The notes below the pieces were generated by a model that worked only from the letters and a program-made list of their open reading frames with translations, did not search any database and had not been told where the DNA came from. Source: Marichromatium purpuratum 984 (GTDB lineage: Bacteria; Pseudomonadota; Gammaproteobacteria; Chromatiales; Chromatiaceae). From it: a stretch of DNA of 64,000 nucleotides. The position numbers were made by a program, and so were the translations under genes. Positions 6,788 through 58,263 of the stretch are shown in pieces (position 1 is the first letter of the stretch; each line of letters begins with the position of its first letter). The stretch is from NCBI RefSeq assembly GCF_000224005.2, contig NZ_CP007031.1:1703001-1767000 (forward strand), in the 5' to 3' direction.

Positions 6788-6794
6788 GGTGTCC

Positions 6795-9182
6795 ATGAAC
6801 ACCGCCCCCGTTACGCCCACCTCGCCGCCGATCCTCAGCCTGCGCTGGAAGGCACTGGTCGCGCTCAGTCTGTTGTTGCTGGTGGTCAATCTCTCGCTGG
6901 TGTTGCTCGCCAATGCGCGGGCCCAGGCGCAGTTCGCCTTGCACCAGTCGCAGGTGCGCGAGCAGCAGGTGCGCCAGTTGTACGCGATCCTCAAGGCGCG
7001 TGAGCACGAGCTTTCCAAACTCGCCACCCTGGTGCCAGGATTCGGCGTCGATGTCAGCGGCGCGGGGCGCGCGGCGCAGCTCGCCGCCGCGCTCGCCAGC
7101 AACGGGGTGCTGCTGGAAATCGAGTGGGGTGTCGGCGCGGCATACTGGGTCGATGTCGAGGGCCAGGTGACGCTGAGTTGGCCGGAGGGCGTCGAGCCGC
7201 CGCCGCAGGAGCTGCTTGCCGACCTGGCCATCGACCCCGAGCGCTCACTCTGCAAGCTCGTCTGTCGTGGGCGCGCGGGTTGTTCGCACTATCTCGCCAC
7301 CCCCTTGCTCTGGCATGGGCGCTATGCCGGCAGCCTGGTGCTGGGGCGCTCGCTCGCCGACGTGCTGCTCGATTTCAACGCTCTGACCGGGGCCGATATC
7401 GCCGTTGCCGACAGTCGTGATGAGACGAGCGTGTCGATGCTCTCGCACCCGGAGTCCTCACGCCCCTTGCTGCGAGCGGCCGGCCCCGCGCTGTTCGCTC
7501 TCGCCCCGGACGAGACCCTGGAGCTGAGTCACGGCGGGCGTGAATTTGTGCTCTATCGGGTGGCGTCGCTGGCGCCCGGGGTCGATGCCTATGTCATCAA
7601 CGAGGTCACCGAGCAGCGTGCCAGTATCCACGCCAGCACCCGCGACGGCTTGCTGCTCGGGCTGCTCGGGTTGTTGCTCTCCGAGGCCTTGTTGCTGCTG
7701 ATCATGAAGACGCCGCTGCGCCGCTTGCGAGCGCTTGCGCTGGCCTTGCCGCTGCTGGCCGAACACCGTTACGCGGCGTTGCGCGAGCGGCTCTCGCGTC
7801 CGCCCCGGGTCTGGCTGCAGCGTGACGAGATCAGCCTGATGTTCGAGACCGTGTGGCAGCTCAGTGAGCGCATGGAGCGTCTGCAGCATGCCCGTGACCA
7901 GGCCGAGGCGCAGCTGATCTGGCTGGCCGAGCACGACCCGCTGACCCAGCTCGCCAATCGTCGGCGGTTCAATGAGTCCTTCGCCCAGGTGGTCGATCAG
8001 GCTTGTCGCTTCGGTCACTGTGGCGCGCTACTGTTTTTGGATCTCGACGAGTTCAAGGAGGTCAACGACCTCAGTGGTCACCAGGTCGGCGATCAGTTGC
8101 TGCAGGGGGTGGCCGATCGGTTGCGCGGGCAGGCCGAGCGCGGTGATCTGCTGGCGCGTCTCGGTGGCGACGAGTTCGCCCTGGTGCTGCCCGAGTCCGA
8201 TCCCGAGCAGGCGTGTCATTGCGCCGAGCGTCTGCAGCAGGCGATCGCCCAGGTCTGTGTCGAGTCGCGTGGCCGGTTGCACCGGGTCTCGGCGAGTATC
8301 GGCATCGTCCTCTTTCCCGCTCAGGGCGAGTCGACCGAAGAACTGCTCGCAAGCGCCGACCTCGCCATGTACCGGGCCAAGCGGCAGGGTCCGGGACGCT
8401 GTCATCTGTTCTCGCTCGAGGATGCCGAGCGCGAGCAGCTCGATGCCCGGATCCGGTGGCGCGAGCGCATCGCCGACGCGCTGCGCGAGGAACGCTTCGA
8501 GTTACATGTCCAGCCGGTCGTCGAGGTCGTCAGCGGCGAGGTCTGTCACGTCGAGGGGCTGCTGCGGATGCGTGATCACGACGGCTCGCTGATCTATCCC
8601 GATCGCTTCATCCCGATTGCCGAGCACAATGGACAGATCCAGTTGATCGACCACTGGGTCGTCGAGCATGCGCTGTGTTTGCTGGTCGCCCATCCGGGGT
8701 TGCGTCTGGCGGTCAACCTATCGGCCCATGCGATGATCGACATCGGGTTGCTGGATCTACTCGAGCGCCGACTCGCGACGCTCGAACTCGACCCCGGGCG
8801 GTTGATCTTCGAGGTCACCGAGACGGCGGCGATCGAGTGCTTGTCGAGCGCGACTAGGCTGATGCACCGTATCCAGGCGCTCGGCTGTCGCTTCGCGCTC
8901 GACGATTTCGGTACCGGCTATGCGTCCTACGCCTATCTGCGCCAGCTTCCGGTCGACGAGGTCAAGATCGACGGTGCCTTCGTGCGTGAACTGAAGAGCA
9001 GTCGCGAGGACCGGATCTTCGTCGCCGCCATCACCGATATGGCGCACGCCATGGGTAAGCGGGTGGTGGCCGAGTTCGTCGAAGACGCCGAGACGCTCGC
9101 GCTGCTGCGCGAGATCGGCGTCGACCGCGCCCAGGGTTACCACTTCGCGCGTCCCGCGCCGCTGCGGCTCGATGGGGAGTGA
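6795..9182 (+). CDS. membrane-bound GGDEF-EAL protein with periplasmic sensor domain
   Basis: The 795-residue product has a membrane helix (about 18-40), a periplasmic region of some 240 residues with two cysteines close together, a second helix (about 285-305), then GGDEF and EAL domains. GGDEF is intact (LARLGGDEF, about residue 457) but the RxxD inhibition site is replaced by ERGD. In the EAL domain the first motif is EGLLR rather than EALLR (about residue 587), while DDFGTGY, KID and the later Glu and Gln residues are kept, so phosphodiesterase activity is plausible. Start ATG 6795 has TGAGG upstream; GTG 6789 is the alternative. It closes a three-gene cassette and probably reads its periplasmic partners. 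Confidence 0.9.
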   Translation: MNTAPVTPTSPPILSLRWKALVALSLLLLVVNLSLVLLANARAQAQFALHQSQVREQQVRQLYAILKAREHELSKLATLVPGFGVDVSGAGRAAQLAAALASNGVLLEIEWGVGAAYWVDVEGQVTLSWPEGVEPPPQELLADLAIDPERSLCKLVCRGRAGCSHYLATPLLWHGRYAGSLVLGRSLADVLLDFNALTGADIAVADSRDETSVSMLSHPESSRPLLRAAGPALFALAPDETLELSHGGREFVLYRVASLAPGVDAYVINEVTEQRASIHASTRDGLLLGLLGLLLSEALLLLIMKTPLRRLRALALALPLLAEHRYAALRERLSRPPRVWLQRDEISLMFETVWQLSERMERLQHARDQAEAQLIWLAEHDPLTQLANRRRFNESFAQVVDQACRFGHCGALLFLDLDEFKEVNDLSGHQVGDQLLQGVADRLRGQAERGDLLARLGGDEFALVLPESDPEQACHCAERLQQAIAQVCVESRGRLHRVSASIGIVLFPAQGESTEELLASADLAMYRAKRQGPGRCHLFSLEDAEREQLDARIRWRERIADALREERFELHVQPVVEVVSGEVCHVEGLLRMRDHDGSLIYPDRFIPIAEHNGQIQLIDHWVVEHALCLLVAHPGLRLAVNLSAHAMIDIGLLDLLERRLATLELDPGRLIFEVTETAAIECLSSATRLMHRIQALGCRFALDDFGTGYASYAYLRQLPVDEVKIDGAFVRELKSSREDRIFVAAITDMAHAMGKRVVAEFVEDAETLALLREIGVDRAQGYHFARPAPLRLDGE

Positions 9183-10205
9183 GCGACCAGCGACCAGCGA
9201 CCAGCGGGATTGAACCGCGAAGCCGCGAAGGGCGCAAAGGGGCTTGAGTTGCAAGCGACCAGCCTCCAGCCGCCAGTGGGTGTGTGCCCTCGACGACAGC
9301 ACGGCCTGCCCGCATCCGTGGCGCACGTTCTTGGCGCCAGTGTTTGTGGGTGGCCAGCCACTGGCGGCTGGAGGCTGATCGCTGGAGGCTCTTCTTTCCC
9401 GCGCGCCTTCGCGCCTCAATCCCGCGGGTCGCTAGCCCTCCGCGATCCGCAACGGCGCGGGACGCGCGAAAAGGACGCAAAGGGGCTTGAGTTGCAAGCG
9501 ACCAGCCTCCAGCCGCCAGTGGGTGTGTGTCCTCGACGACAGCACGGCTTGGCCGCATCCGTGGCGCACGTTCTTGGCGCCAGTGTTTGTGGGTGGCCAG
9601 CCACTGGCGGCTGGAGGCTCTTCTTTCCCGCGCGCCTTCGCGCCTCAATCCCGCGGGTCGCTAGCCCTCCGCGATCCGCAGCGGCGCGGGACGCGCGAAA
9701 AGGACGCAAAGGGGCTTGAGTTGCAAGCGACCAGCCTCCAGCCGCCAGTGGGTGTGTGCCCTCGACGACAGCACAGCCTGCCCGCATCCGTGGCGCACGT
9801 TCTTGGCGCCAGTGTTTGTGGGTGGCCAGCCACTGGCGGCTGGAGGCTGATCGCTGGAGGCTCTTCTTTCCCGCGCGCCTTCGCGCCTCAATCCCGCGGG
9901 TCGCTAGCCCTCCGCGATCCGCAACGGCGCGGGACGCGCGAAAAGGGCGCAAAGGGGCTTGAGTTGCAAGCGACCAGCCTCCAGCCGCCAGTGGGTGTGT
10001 GTCCTCGACGACAGCACGGCTTGGCCGCATCCGTGGCGCACGTTCTTGGCGCCAGTGTTTGTGGGTAGCCCGCCACTGGCGGCTGGAGGCTGATCGCTGG
10101 AGGCTCTTCTTCCCTTTGCGGCTTCGCGGTTCAATCCCCCGGCTGGCGGCTGGCGGCTGGCGGCTGGCGGCTGGCGGCTGGCGGCTGGCGGCTGGCGGCT
10201 GGCGG
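9183..10205. repeat. composite repeat block built of GCTGGNN heptamers and ~243 bp tandem units
   Basis: This 1 kb block fills the gap between two converging genes and encodes no credible protein. It starts with three GCGACCA heptamers (9183-9206), then a core sequence (9207-9240, ATTGAACCGCGAAGCCGCG). About 3.7 tandem units follow, with starts at 9241, 9484, 9713 and 9956 (spacings 243, 229 and 243). The block closes with a shortened, inverted copy of the core (10112-10138) and about nine GGCTGGC heptamers (10140-10205). Each unit holds a 19-base inverted repeat (AGCCTCCAGCCGCCAGTGG and its complement) around a loop of about 80 bases. The 14 bases missing from the second unit are exactly two heptamers. 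Confidence 0.9.
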
Positions 10206-10206
10206 T

Positions 10207-11457
10207 TCAGATCACCAATGCCACCACCGCCCCGGTCATCAGCGTGGCCAGGGTGCCGGAGACGATGGTGCGCGGGCCGAGGGCGACGATCTCGGCGCGT
10301 CGTTCCGGGGCCAGGGTGCCGAGCGCGCCGATCATGATGCCGAGGCTGCCGAGGTTGGCAAAGCCGCACAGCGCATAGGTCATGATCAGCCGGCTGCGCG
10401 GGCTGAGCGCCTCGGACGGCAGTGCCGCCAGGTCGAGATAGGCCACCAGCTCGTTGAGGACCGTCTTGACCCCGAGCAGGGCGCCGGCGGTGGGGGCCTC
10501 GGACCAGGGGATGCCGATCAGCCAGGCCGCCGGGGCCATCAGCCAGCCGAGCATGCGTTGGGCGCTCAACGGCGCGTCGGCGACCTCGGGCAACAGCCCG
10601 AGGGCCTGGTTGACCAGGCTCACCAGGGCGACCATCACCACCAGCATGGCGATGATGTTGAGCCACAGCGGGATTGCCTGCAGGGTGCCGCGGGTGATGG
10701 CGTCCATCGCCCCGTGTGCCTCGCTGACCATCGGTGCGCGGGTCTCGGCGGCCTCGCGCGCCGTCTCCGGGATCATCACCCCGGCGATCACCAGCGCCGC
10801 CGGGGCGCTGATCAGCGAGGCGGTGAGGATGTGACCCATGGCCTCGGGGATCGCCGTGGCGAGGAAGCTCGCGTAGAGCACCATCACCGTGCCGGCGATG
10901 GTGGCCATGCCGCAGGTCATCAGCGCGAACAGCGCCGATCGCGACATCTCGCGCAGATAGGGACGGATCAGCAGCGGCGCTTCGGTCATGCCGACGAAGA
11001 CGTTGGCCGCCGCGCCGAGCCCCAGCGCGCCGCCGCTGCCGAGGGTGCGTTCGAGCACCCAGGCGAAACCGCGTACCAGCAGCGGCAGTACCCGCCAGTG
11101 GAACAGCAGCGCCGAGAGCGCGCTGATCACCAGGATCAGCGGCAGGGCGCGGAAGGCGAGGACGAAGCCGTTCTCCGGGTACTGGGTGGCGAAGGGCGCG
11201 GCGCCACCGCCGAGATAGCCGAACACCAGCGCGGTGCCGGCCTCGGTGGCGCGCTCGAGCGCGAGCACCAGATCGTTGAGGGCGAGAAAGCCCTGCTGGA
11301 CCGGGGCGAGCTTGAGGAGCGCCAGGGCGAGCAGCAGCTGCAGGCCCAGCCCCACGAGCACCAGGCGCGGGCGGACTGCGCGACGCGATTCGCTGACCGA
11401 CCAGGCCAGCGCGAGGATGACGACGAGCCCGAGCAGCGGCTGGAGACTGGTCAGCAT
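10207..11457 (-). CDS. concentrative nucleoside transporter (CNT/NupC family)
   Basis: This 416-residue inner-membrane protein imports nucleosides with a cation gradient. About ten hydrophobic helices are visible, with CNT-family signatures: the GMTEAPLLIRPYL re-entrant/helix motif and GVKTVLNELVAY, both of which line the nucleoside site, plus CGFANLGSLG. Length is normal for bacterial CNTs (about 400-420). It is the last gene of a minus-strand group, starting 13 bases after hslO, so co-transcription is likely. The heptamer repeat block runs to within one base of its stop codon, an unusual proximity. Substrate preference cannot be read from the sequence. Confidence 0.9.
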   Translation of the reverse strand: MLTSLQPLLGLVVILALAWSVSESRRAVRPRLVLVGLGLQLLLALALLKLAPVQQGFLALNDLVLALERATEAGTALVFGYLGGGAAPFATQYPENGFVLAFRALPLILVISALSALLFHWRVLPLLVRGFAWVLERTLGSGGALGLGAAANVFVGMTEAPLLIRPYLREMSRSALFALMTCGMATIAGTVMVLYASFLATAIPEAMGHILTASLISAPAALVIAGVMIPETAREAAETRAPMVSEAHGAMDAITRGTLQAIPLWLNIIAMLVVMVALVSLVNQALGLLPEVADAPLSAQRMLGWLMAPAAWLIGIPWSEAPTAGALLGVKTVLNELVAYLDLAALPSEALSPRSRLIMTYALCGFANLGSLGIMIGALGTLAPERRAEIVALGPRTIVSGTLATLMTGAVVALVI

Positions 11458-29011: not shown

Positions 29012-29472
29012 AGGATTGAACCGCACGTGACGGACTGAATCGCAAAGATACCGTCTTTCCCGTCAACCCCGACCGTGCACACCAGCCTCCCCGACTGGAG
29101 GCTGGAGGCTGGAGGCTGATGTGAACCGCAAAGCCGCGAAGAACGCGAAGGAGGAAGGGGGCTTGGCCTCCAGTGGCCAGCCATCAGTCTCTAGTGGGGC
29201 GCGCGTCGGCGTCGAGGTTTGAGGTCTAAATCATTGAACCCTTGGCGCCCTTCGCGACTTGGCGGTTCAATCTTCTGGTAGCTGGTAGCTGGTAGCTGGT
29301 AGCTGGTAGCTGGTAGCTGGTAGCTGGTAGCTGGTAGCTGGTAGCTGGTAGCTGGTAACTGGCGGCTGGTAACTGGTGGCTCCCCCACCGGTGCTGTGTT
29401 AAAAAGACGGCCATTCAGACTGGTCCGGTCAGCGCCGGATCCCGACCGCAGCCGCAGCAGGATGACCGCCCC
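29012..29472. repeat. second heptamer-repeat block and nagZ leader
   Basis: No protein gene is supported. After a short GC-rich lead there are about three GCTGGAG heptamers (about 29095-29119), a core sequence related to that at 9207 (29121-29155, GAACCGCAAAGCCGCGAAG), about 90 bases of unique DNA, an inverted core copy (29243-29271, CCCTTCGCGACTTGGCGG) and about 12 copies of GCTGGTA (29275-29357), which decay into variants up to about 29381. The last 80 bases, ending near ATG 29473, should contain the nagZ promoter and leader. Confidence 0.85.
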
Positions 29473-57157: not shown

Positions 57158-57541
57158 TCAGTCGCGCGGCGCCGGATCGATGTCCTGATAGATCTCGGGG
57201 CGGAAGCGCGGGGTGCAGATGGCGAGAAAGATCAGATCGTCCATGCCGGTGTTGGCAATGCGTTGGGGTGTCCCGGCGGGGATGCGGACCAGGTCGCCGG
57301 GTCCGACATCCTGGTCGGTGCCGTCGTCGAGCGCGATGCGTCCGCTGCCGTGGAGGATCAGATAGCGCTCGGTGGTCGCCGCGAGTCGGTGCAGTCGGGT
57401 CGCGGTGCCGGGCGCGACTCGGGCACGCGCGATCGAGACCTCGGGATCGTCGGCCCGGTTCCAGGTCTCGAGGATGAAGCAACCTTCCTCAAAAAAATAC
57501 TCCGCCCCGGGGTCGGGGCGGTGGATCTCGGTGCCGCTCAT
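57158..57541 (-). CDS. cupin-domain protein
   Basis: The 127-residue protein is a single small cupin barrel: EVSIARARVAPG, LHRLAATTERYLILHGSG, VGPGDLVRIPAGTPQ and IFLAICTPRF. The metal-binding set is reduced, with one clear His before TTERY. The start ATG overlaps the end of the RAYT gene (ATGA). The ligand is unknown. Confidence 0.85.
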   Translation of the reverse strand: MSGTEIHRPDPGAEYFFEEGCFILETWNRADDPEVSIARARVAPGTATRLHRLAATTERYLILHGSGRIALDDGTDQDVGPGDLVRIPAGTPQRIANTGMDDLIFLAICTPRFRPEIYQDIDPAPRD

Positions 57542-58263
57542 TGCATCGCGGCGGCGGCCGCGCGCCGTCGATAGGCCGCCGAGCGTCGATCGCCACCTCG
57601 GGGGCGAGGTTGCGGGCGACGGTTGAGGGCGCTGGCGATGCGTGTGCAGAAGGCGTCGTCGCCGAGTACCCAGGCCTTGTTGGTGGAGTCGCGGATGCGT
57701 CCGAGCAGTGGCTCGCTGACGGGGGTCTCGGCTAGTCGCGCATAGTGTTCGCGTCTGGCCTTCATGCTGCGCCCGAGCCGGTTGTATTCGGCGTGCGGGG
57801 TGGTCAGCGGATCGTCCTCGCCGAGTGCGTTGGCGCCGTGGCTCGACCAGCCGTAATCGGCCGGGTGATCGACCAGCCCGGCGCGCACCGCGTTCGACTC
57901 GATATAGAGCGAGACCGGCAGCAGATAATCCTTGGGGTCGAGGAGGGTGGCGCGATAGCGACCCTCCCAGAGGGTGCCGGTACGCTCGTAACGGGCGTTG
58001 AAGTATTGGACGTAATAGCGCCCGACATACTGCATGAGCTTGCCGATGCCGTTGTCCTGGTGCGGGGTCAGCAACAGATGAAAGTGGTTCGGCATCAGCA
58101 CATAGGCGTGGATCGAGCATTGGAACTTCTCGGTCGCCGCCTTGAGCTTCTCCCAGATGAACCAGTAGTCATCCTCCTCGAAGAGGATGCGTTGGCGGTT
58201 GTTGCCGCGCTGGATGACGTGCTGCGGATAACCGGGCAGGACGAATCTAGGTAGACGTGCCAT
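57538..58263 (-). CDS. REP-associated tyrosine transposase (RAYT)
   Basis: The 241-residue protein is a Y1-type transposase of the RAYT group, related to IS200 enzymes but usually domesticated and linked to REP hairpins. It has PRFVLPGYPQHVIQRGNN, the HUH motif in MPNHFHLLL, and the catalytic Tyr region YVGRYYVQYFN. The last 40 residues are Arg/Ala-rich. Unlike a mobile IS it is a single gene with no flanking ends seen, and it overlaps the cupin gene (ATGA). RAYTs are single copy and process REP sequences. Confidence 0.9.
   Translation of the reverse strand: MARLPRFVLPGYPQHVIQRGNNRQRILFEEDDYWFIWEKLKAATEKFQCSIHAYVLMPNHFHLLLTPHQDNGIGKLMQYVGRYYVQYFNARYERTGTLWEGRYRATLLDPKDYLLPVSLYIESNAVRAGLVDHPADYGWSSHGANALGEDDPLTTPHAEYNRLGRSMKARREHYARLAETPVSEPLLGRIRDSTNKAWVLGDDAFCTRIASALNRRPQPRPRGGDRRSAAYRRRAAAAAMQ

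Follow-up and report, generated by a model that had tools for sequence, protein, structure and literature searches.

The STRR heptamers of cyanobacteria are CCCCA-type arrays. In Xanthomonas, a degenerate heptamer (GGGAATC/GGGANTN) is described as mostly intergenic and hypervariable in array length, with 70-75 convergent inverted pairs per genome and with average distances of 28 nt to the 5' neighbour and 160 nt to the next gene (PMC4692102). TAACTGA heptamer direct repeats are reported from Beggiatoaceae and also from Thiocystis violascens; they are built from one fixed word, lie mostly upstream of start codons and are direct, with one indirect repeat reported (PMC4679880). The BrickBuilt miniature inverted-repeat element (MITE) of Porphyromonas gingivalis contains an inner 23-nt tandem unit, present in 19 copies in one strain (PMC4596501). 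The BIMEs of E. coli are mosaic intergenic elements of inverted units (PMC2817692), and E. coli palindromic units are listed among the variable segments that occupy fixed sites between strains (PMC2884548). REP sequences are marked by a hairpin of 20-40 nt with a terminal GTAG or CGTC (PMC3733652).

Here we analyse a repeat block at positions 9183-10205 of a window of 64,000 nt, i.e., the whole stretch of DNA under study. In the reading that we consider likely, the block arose by four-fold amplification, at this locus, of a single member of a genus-level, mosaic, nested-palindrome intergenic family, the copies of which have been reshaped by slippage, by template switching and by recombination with one another. 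As far as the cited portions of the reports describe them, the Xanthomonas convergent heptamer repeats and, for their mosaic habit, the BIMEs are closest in kind, and no family definition that we tested fits in full. A seven-base degenerate word, an intergenic position, a variable copy number, convergent pairs and a short distance to the 5' neighbour are shared with the Xanthomonas heptamers. However, the word here is CCAGCNN/GCTGGNN, which has no G run and does not conform to GGGANTN, and inside the arrays lie a second inverted repeat and variable cores, which invert and exchange. A G-quadruplex would not be expected from GCTGG words. The block resembles BIMEs as a mosaic intergenic element of inverted units, but it has tandem heptamer arms instead of a REP unit, a GTAG tag or an adjoining RAYT gene. 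It shares the intergenic position, the inverted-repeat ends and a tandem repeat with BrickBuilt, whereas its 7-nt arrays are the outermost arms and stand in inverted orientation. Like the TAACTGA repeats of related sulfur bacteria, it has heptamers repeated directly in intergenic DNA; those repeats differ in the fixed word, arrangement and position given above. The first-pass annotation knew of no named family with this structure, and in positions 9000-10400 no Rfam family reached its gathering score: the best match was a microRNA model (39.4 bits, 128 needed), and the microRNA models lie so far below their gathering scores that we judged them chance. The open literature, a scope outside which most subscription papers fall, likewise gave no description of the family among the matches listed.

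Architecture of the block and its local amplification

The block lies between two convergent genes, encoding a dCache-GGDEF-EAL protein on the left (6789-9182, + strand) and a Na+/nucleoside transporter on the right (10207-11457, - strand). The closest relatives of the transporter include Chromatiaceae, e.g., Thiobaca trueperi and Thiocystis violacea (76% identity). Tandem Repeats Finder (TRF) reported a 243-bp period with 3.8 copies (9228-10142), a CGGCTGG array of 9.4 copies (10140-10205) and an AGCGACC array of 3.6 copies (9182-9206). The units start at 9233, 9476, 9705 and 9948, which gives spacings of 243, 229 and 243 bases and agrees with the earlier count of about 3.7 units at this spacing between convergent genes. 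The short unit lacks 14 bases, read by eye as two heptamers, and length changes in heptamer steps, as the first-pass annotation had proposed, recur between orthologous sites. Three-copy GCTGGNN matches number 17 in the window versus 0.00 expected from 100 dinucleotide shuffles, and chance is therefore excluded for the block. The same word builds the inner stems of unit 1 (left arm 9254-9282, right arm 9355-9383, + strand), which are 93% complementary, so that its presence at both the ends and the inner stems, claimed earlier, is borne out. Open frames exist on both strands, but a coding function was rejected, as the 229-base spacing and the 7-base steps destroy any common frame.

A second inverted repeat (GGGATTGAACCGCGAAGCCGCGAAGGGCGCAAAGG / CCCTTTGCGGCTTCGCGGTTCAATCCCC), missed by the first-pass annotation, provides a frame to arrays and units. 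It is situated between them and follows the pattern GGGATTGAACCGC(GAAG..)/(..CTTC)GCGGTTCAATCCC. Read along the + strand, the block opens with the left outer heptamer array (9183-9205; (CCAGCGA)3 read inward, by TRF and word count), followed by the left terminal inverted repeat GGGATTGAACCGCGAAGCCGCGAAGGGCGCAAAGGG (9206-9241), which pairs with 10112-10161 and is common to dispersed copies. Units were delimited by unit comparison and inverted repeats, supplemented with TRF for unit 1. Unit 1 (9228-9470) has a type A core and closes with junction 1 (9402-9470, - strand). Unit 2 (9471-9699) has a type B core minus the 14 bases and ends in junction 2 (9631-9699), unit 3 (9700-9942) is again type A and ends in junction 3 (9874-9942), and unit 4 (9943-10111), of type B, leads into an intact right end. 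This end comprises the right terminal inverted repeat CCCTTTGCGGCTTCGCGGTTCAATCCCC (10112-10139, by inverted-repeat comparison) and the right outer heptamer array (10140-10205). The units thus show a two-type higher order: over 140 positions, units 1 and 3 differ at one and units 2 and 4 at two, versus three differences between units 1 and 2 and six between units 3 and 4.

The orthologous site in a congener (G001) carries one unit, versus about four in the genome of the window (G000). The junctions between the window units repeat the left boundary in reverse orientation, and the copied stretch takes in codons close to the EAL gene end. Junction 1 corresponds to an inverted copy of 9144-9227, in which the EAL gene end at 9144-9171 (+ strand) is the proposed source of the inverted segment, based on inverted-repeat matches. 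One 28-nt stretch of the junction agrees with the inverted gene end at 25 positions; the next best match in the 64 kb outside the block reaches 19 of 28. Because the G000 boundary aligns with junction 1 better than its G001 counterpart does (scores of 81 and 60), the inverted-copy event probably belongs to the G000 lineage. As only 60 of the 84 columns aligned between junction 1 and its proposed source agree (gaps included), the event would be old or its path more complex. The near identity of unit 1 with unit 3 and of unit 2 with unit 4 makes it probable that a dimer arose first and was doubled later.

A dispersed family with common ends and variable cores

The first-pass annotation named the absence of similar arrays from relatives as a ground for refutation. 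This ground does not apply, and a block private to its locus is not supported, as we find a repeat family dispersed within this genus of purple bacteria. With the block as query, 113 matches were obtained in G000, 118 in G001 and 145 in a further congener (G003), numbers that stand for matches and not for copies, as palindromes match both strands. The block had no match in G002, an incomplete draft of the genus (83% complete) in which 13 array and three end-repeat pattern matches were present and which was left out of the site comparison. A single 243-base unit used as query matched none of 19 other genomes of the family and none of 15 other genomes of the class. In G000 we counted 63 distinct exact array-plus-end junctions (67 rows, overlapping ones merged), and 57 stretches around matches were studied along with the window. 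The window itself holds a second element of the family at about 29014-29381 (+ strand), present in single copy, with the layout of the block but another core, and with a right array of 15.3 CTGGTAG copies (TRF); the orthologous G001 site has a shorter insert.

The dispersed elements share their ends and differ in their cores. Their layout is nested, from (CCAGCNN)n through the inverted end GATTGAACCGC(RAAG..) and the heptamer stems to the core and then the mirror image. The terminal repeat consists of CGCRAAG words between the outer and inner heptamer arrays, and the order of CCAGC array, end repeat, core, mirrored end repeat and GCTGG array is strict. The arrays face inward: 18 of 57 G000 feature clusters hold both array types, and none of the 57 has GCTGG before CCAGC. 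The same orientation is seen in another Chromatiaceae genus, where CCAGC precedes GCTGG in all eight mixed neighbour pairs at 20 loci (10 picked for arrays and 10 for end-repeat pairs). There the modules are separate, with end-repeat hairpins that have no flanking arrays of three or more copies and inverted arrays that enclose 9-182 bases of other sequence.

Among 116 genomes of the family, arrays occur in 26, the end repeat in 22 and both in 18 (Fisher P 1.5e-11, a guide only, as the genomes are related and the tables were counted by hand). Arrays are present in one of 113 other families of the class, each represented by a single genome, and the end repeat gives single hits in two of 298 other genomes of the phylum. 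The one genome with GCTGGNN arrays among the 113 (G037) has 39 forward and 14 reverse matches. A reversed-word control was not silent, with 41 and 31 matches in G000 versus 286 and 289 for the true words; these matches are probably explained by GCTGGTC arrays, which contain the reversed word GGTCG.

Dispersed intergenic copies with variable cores are also what would be seen in a MITE family that is mobilised in trans by a transposase recognising GGATTGAACCGC ends, with the heptamers as by-products. Terminal inverted repeats are indeed present, 117-411 bases apart in 43 pairs, and stand-alone inverted-end elements occur in the other Chromatiaceae genus. We nevertheless regard this reading as improbable, as the site comparison below yields no empty site and the elements leave no transposon-sized span: facing exact array-plus-end junctions are separated either by 134-939 bp or by 7154 bp and more. 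The 63 exact junctions, a set of exact ends with arrays to which degenerate and array-less ends do not belong, include no facing pair at a distance of 1-7 kb, such as an autonomous partner would have.

A REP/BIME system mobilised by a RAYT-type (Y1) transposase is far less probable still, although an IS200-like, RAYT-type Y1_Tnp gene is located in the same window (57538-58263, - strand) and this gene family occurs in all four genomes of the genus (once in G000, G001 and G003, twice in G002). No array or end repeat flanks the Y1 gene, and the nearest motif is a lone 11-base match 3387 bases away, on which ground the element ends were rejected as RAYT substrate. Moreover, the elements consist of word-built arms with (CCAGCNN)n and GATTGAACCGC as ends, and lack a 20-40 nt hairpin with terminal GTAG or CGTC. 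A better candidate substrate is the GTAG-tagged hairpin GTAGGTTGGGTTGCC.

This hairpin belongs to a separate GTAG-tagged palindrome (GTAGGTTGGGTTGCC...GGCAACCCAAC) that occurs eight times in 108 loci, in some cases next to or inside elements (L016:1235; L226:572 and 790; L048:1349; L052:1173 and 1266; L188:624 and 743). It resembles REP and may be a RAYT substrate.

Orthologous sites and chromosome rearrangements

For 18 loci, sites were chosen by their G000 flanks alone and insert lengths were worked out by hand (L167 and L172 were omitted for having too few exact features, and L030 and L023 are also absent). Collinear flanks were found for 15 loci in G001 and 12 in G003, and all 27 pairs carry an insert. 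Outside the 27, no collinear pair was obtained for L165, L166 and L175 in G001 and for L156, L160, L162, L166, L174 and L175 in G003, where flanks lay on different contigs or about 16 kb apart, or were multi-copy or missing. The smallest insert, that of L173 in G001, measures about 55 nt by flank distance and about 110 nt when read directly, and is a different heptamer element. In a second set, all 39 orthologous pairs with both flanks (27 G000 sites) hold an insert of at least 115 nt; about half of these pairs were picked because the other genome had an element, and the 27-pair count is the fairer one. The 39-pair set leaves out L034/L206, L037, L039, L048, L207, L209, L211, L212 and L215 (one flank, contig end or no match) as well as L189. 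Because all 39 compared pairs carry an insert, the sites are old.

Within these sites, both arrays and cores vary. The left array of one site runs to 11 copies in G000 (L018) and to 26 visible units in G001 (L035), and G003 (L046) has no tandem array there; the first-pass annotation had offered replication slippage as one origin of the block, and for the heptamer arrays this is supported. A 97-base N run lies inside the heptamer array of L035. Arrays of this kind break assemblies, so array counts from drafts are lower bounds. That repeats do so is also the point in favour of a sequencing or assembly artefact, a reading we hold to be barely credible for the block, as the same architecture is found at dozens of sites in separate genomes and the orthologous G001 site carries one unit.

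The core is inverted in place, with both flanks present, in three clear cases (L017/L036, L018/L046 and L169/L184), and L024/L044 is a probable fourth. The reverse strand scores higher in five of the 39 pairs, namely these four and, marginally, L031/L052; L228/L213 gives a mixed strand signal. At L173/L176 and L164/L178 the core has been replaced by another type, and cores are tandemly duplicated at sites L157, L164, L174 and L232. The last of these (G000 3204800-3207500) is a locally amplified element with three tandem units, of which the G001 ortholog (L214) has a shorter insert. The flanks of L175, less than 1 kb apart in G000, are separated by about 16 kb in G001 and likewise in G003, which suggests a deletion at the element in the G000 lineage.

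Recombination between copies at distant sites also seems to have rearranged the chromosome (REARRANGEMENT). The left flank of the G000 element at 444.7 kb leads, in G001, via an element to the left flank of the 3353.1 kb element, reversed, and the right flanks of the same two elements are connected through another element. Such a pair of joins is reciprocal, as in an inversion whose two breakpoints both fall at elements. The two joins lie about 95 kb apart on one G001 contig, versus 2.9 Mb (0.87 Mb the other way) between the corresponding places in G000, so further rearrangement has occurred. At a second G001 junction (L206), the G000 position 1563.3 kb, which retains half a core of family A, is joined to element locus L167. 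The junctions were approached from element-bearing loci, so that one side of each was given; two were followed and a third (L207/L166) was left aside.

Structure, gene context and mode of evolution

For the single-unit copy of G001, a fold of -169.5 kcal/mol (z -8.4) supports the hairpin proposed in the first-pass annotation. In core family A (26 copies), 11 of 35 pairs are changed on both sides versus 6.3 in shuffled alignments; none of 500 shuffles reaches this number and sliding the partners yields at most three double-changed pairs, but the count is not a probability, as the rows are related and the structure was taken from the same alignment. When 43 elements with every type of core were taken together, the end repeats showed no significant coevolution (14.8 versus 14.4 of 20; 1387 of 20,000 permutations), nor did they in a gapped version of the test (2829 of 20,000), a result that speaks against our reading.

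Elements rarely overlap genes: among 50 clusters flanked by a called gene on either side, one has more than 20% coding overlap, the gene calls having been made with a codon-usage script that learned from 25 long ORFs and not taken from annotation. Stop codons are near the element edges (median 23 nt, 28 of 49 within 30 nt), and start codons are far from them (median 98 nt, five of 51 within 30 nt; Fisher 4.6e-7). The clusters are located between 27 tandem, 12 divergent and 11 convergent gene pairs, versus 29, 10 and 8 among the intergenic gaps of the window. With 11 of 50 clusters, there is no clear excess between convergent genes and a terminator bias was rejected.

The stable fold, the compensatory changes in one core family and the preference for stop codons could together signal a functional RNA structure at 3' ends that is under selection for its hairpin, as a terminator, an mRNA stabiliser or an sRNA. 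We rate such a function as unlikely, marginally more so than the MITE family. The spacing to stops would equally be expected from tolerance outside promoters, the convergent arrangement is not clearly enriched and Rfam offers no family at gathering score. Cores are inverted or replaced in place between species, which argues against a sequence-specific RNA. Compensatory changes in repeat stems need not imply a selected RNA; template switching is itself described as producing compensatory changes that mimic compensatory evolution (PMC8794818). Of the original interpretation, the word, the 7-base steps, the hairpin and the slippage of the arrays thus stand. For the structured RNA and the nucleoid-protein binding array, the fold itself is the sole positive support.

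The quasi-palindromic mosaic repeat is probably a recombinogenic spacer, rather than an active transposon or a dedicated RNA. Its mechanism is read from end products. The arms would turn the element into a mutational hot spot that acts on itself. Slippage of the polymerase would lengthen and shorten the arrays in 7-base steps and keep them homogeneous, while template switching between the arms would invert the core and could homogenise the arms. At the block, a template switch may have copied the left boundary backwards and re-entered the left end, resulting in tandem units that were later doubled by unequal exchange. Homologous recombination among dispersed copies would swap cores and rearrange the chromosome. 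Retention could reflect tolerance in non-promoter intergenic sequence and would need no sequence-specific function.

Parts of this scheme have precedents. Template switching between inverted repeats is described in yeast as homogenising arms and inverting spacers (PMC8604942), and arm homogenisation, spacer inversion and inverted duplication around a palindrome are all reported for quasi-palindromes (PMC8604942, PMC8794818, PMC3315005). The cited portions of these reports differ from the present case in that they deal with single-site mutations and short spacers, and not with the lifestyle of a repeat family. The spacers inverted in that way are short, with 2-5 base changes (PMC8604942), versus cores of about 75 bases or more here, and ordinary recombination between the arms is therefore an equal candidate for the flips.

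Frequent homogenisation of the arms predicts matching outer arrays, yet the outer arrays differ, which counts against this part of the proposal. For the reading as a whole, the rarity of shared outer suffixes is also counted in favour, as are the double changes in core family A. Only one of 19 elements (L225) shares a suffix between its two outer arrays, versus 5.46 expected (P 0.004, a value that belongs to the version with pooled words only); with left-by-right marginals, the expected fraction is 0.18 and none of 13 is equal. Equal outer suffixes were found in none of 10 G001 loci and in one of eight in the other Chromatiaceae genus. More tentatively, and less likely than not, the family could be a transposase-free one that persists by replication error, in which the word-built arms provoke template switching and slippage and the element is thereby rebuilt, inverted and multiplied in place, with recombination carrying cores between sites. 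The outer arrays, alike in their five-base word but not in their two-base suffixes, would then interrupt the palindrome once per heptamer and hold it slightly short of the perfection at which cells destroy long palindromes.

The element is real and not due to chance; it belongs to known kinds, i.e., intergenic palindromic and heptamer repeats, and its rearrangement history is unusually legible. It is rare for a single family to display, within just three genomes, array slippage, cores that are inverted in place and exchanged, a tandem amplification that carries a backwards copy of its flank, and a chromosomal rearrangement joined reciprocally through family members. Genus-specific intergenic repeats are common, and the family described here is a natural test system for the evolution of quasi-palindromes, in which the avoidance of matching outer arrays is a testable prediction on the limits of palindrome perfection.
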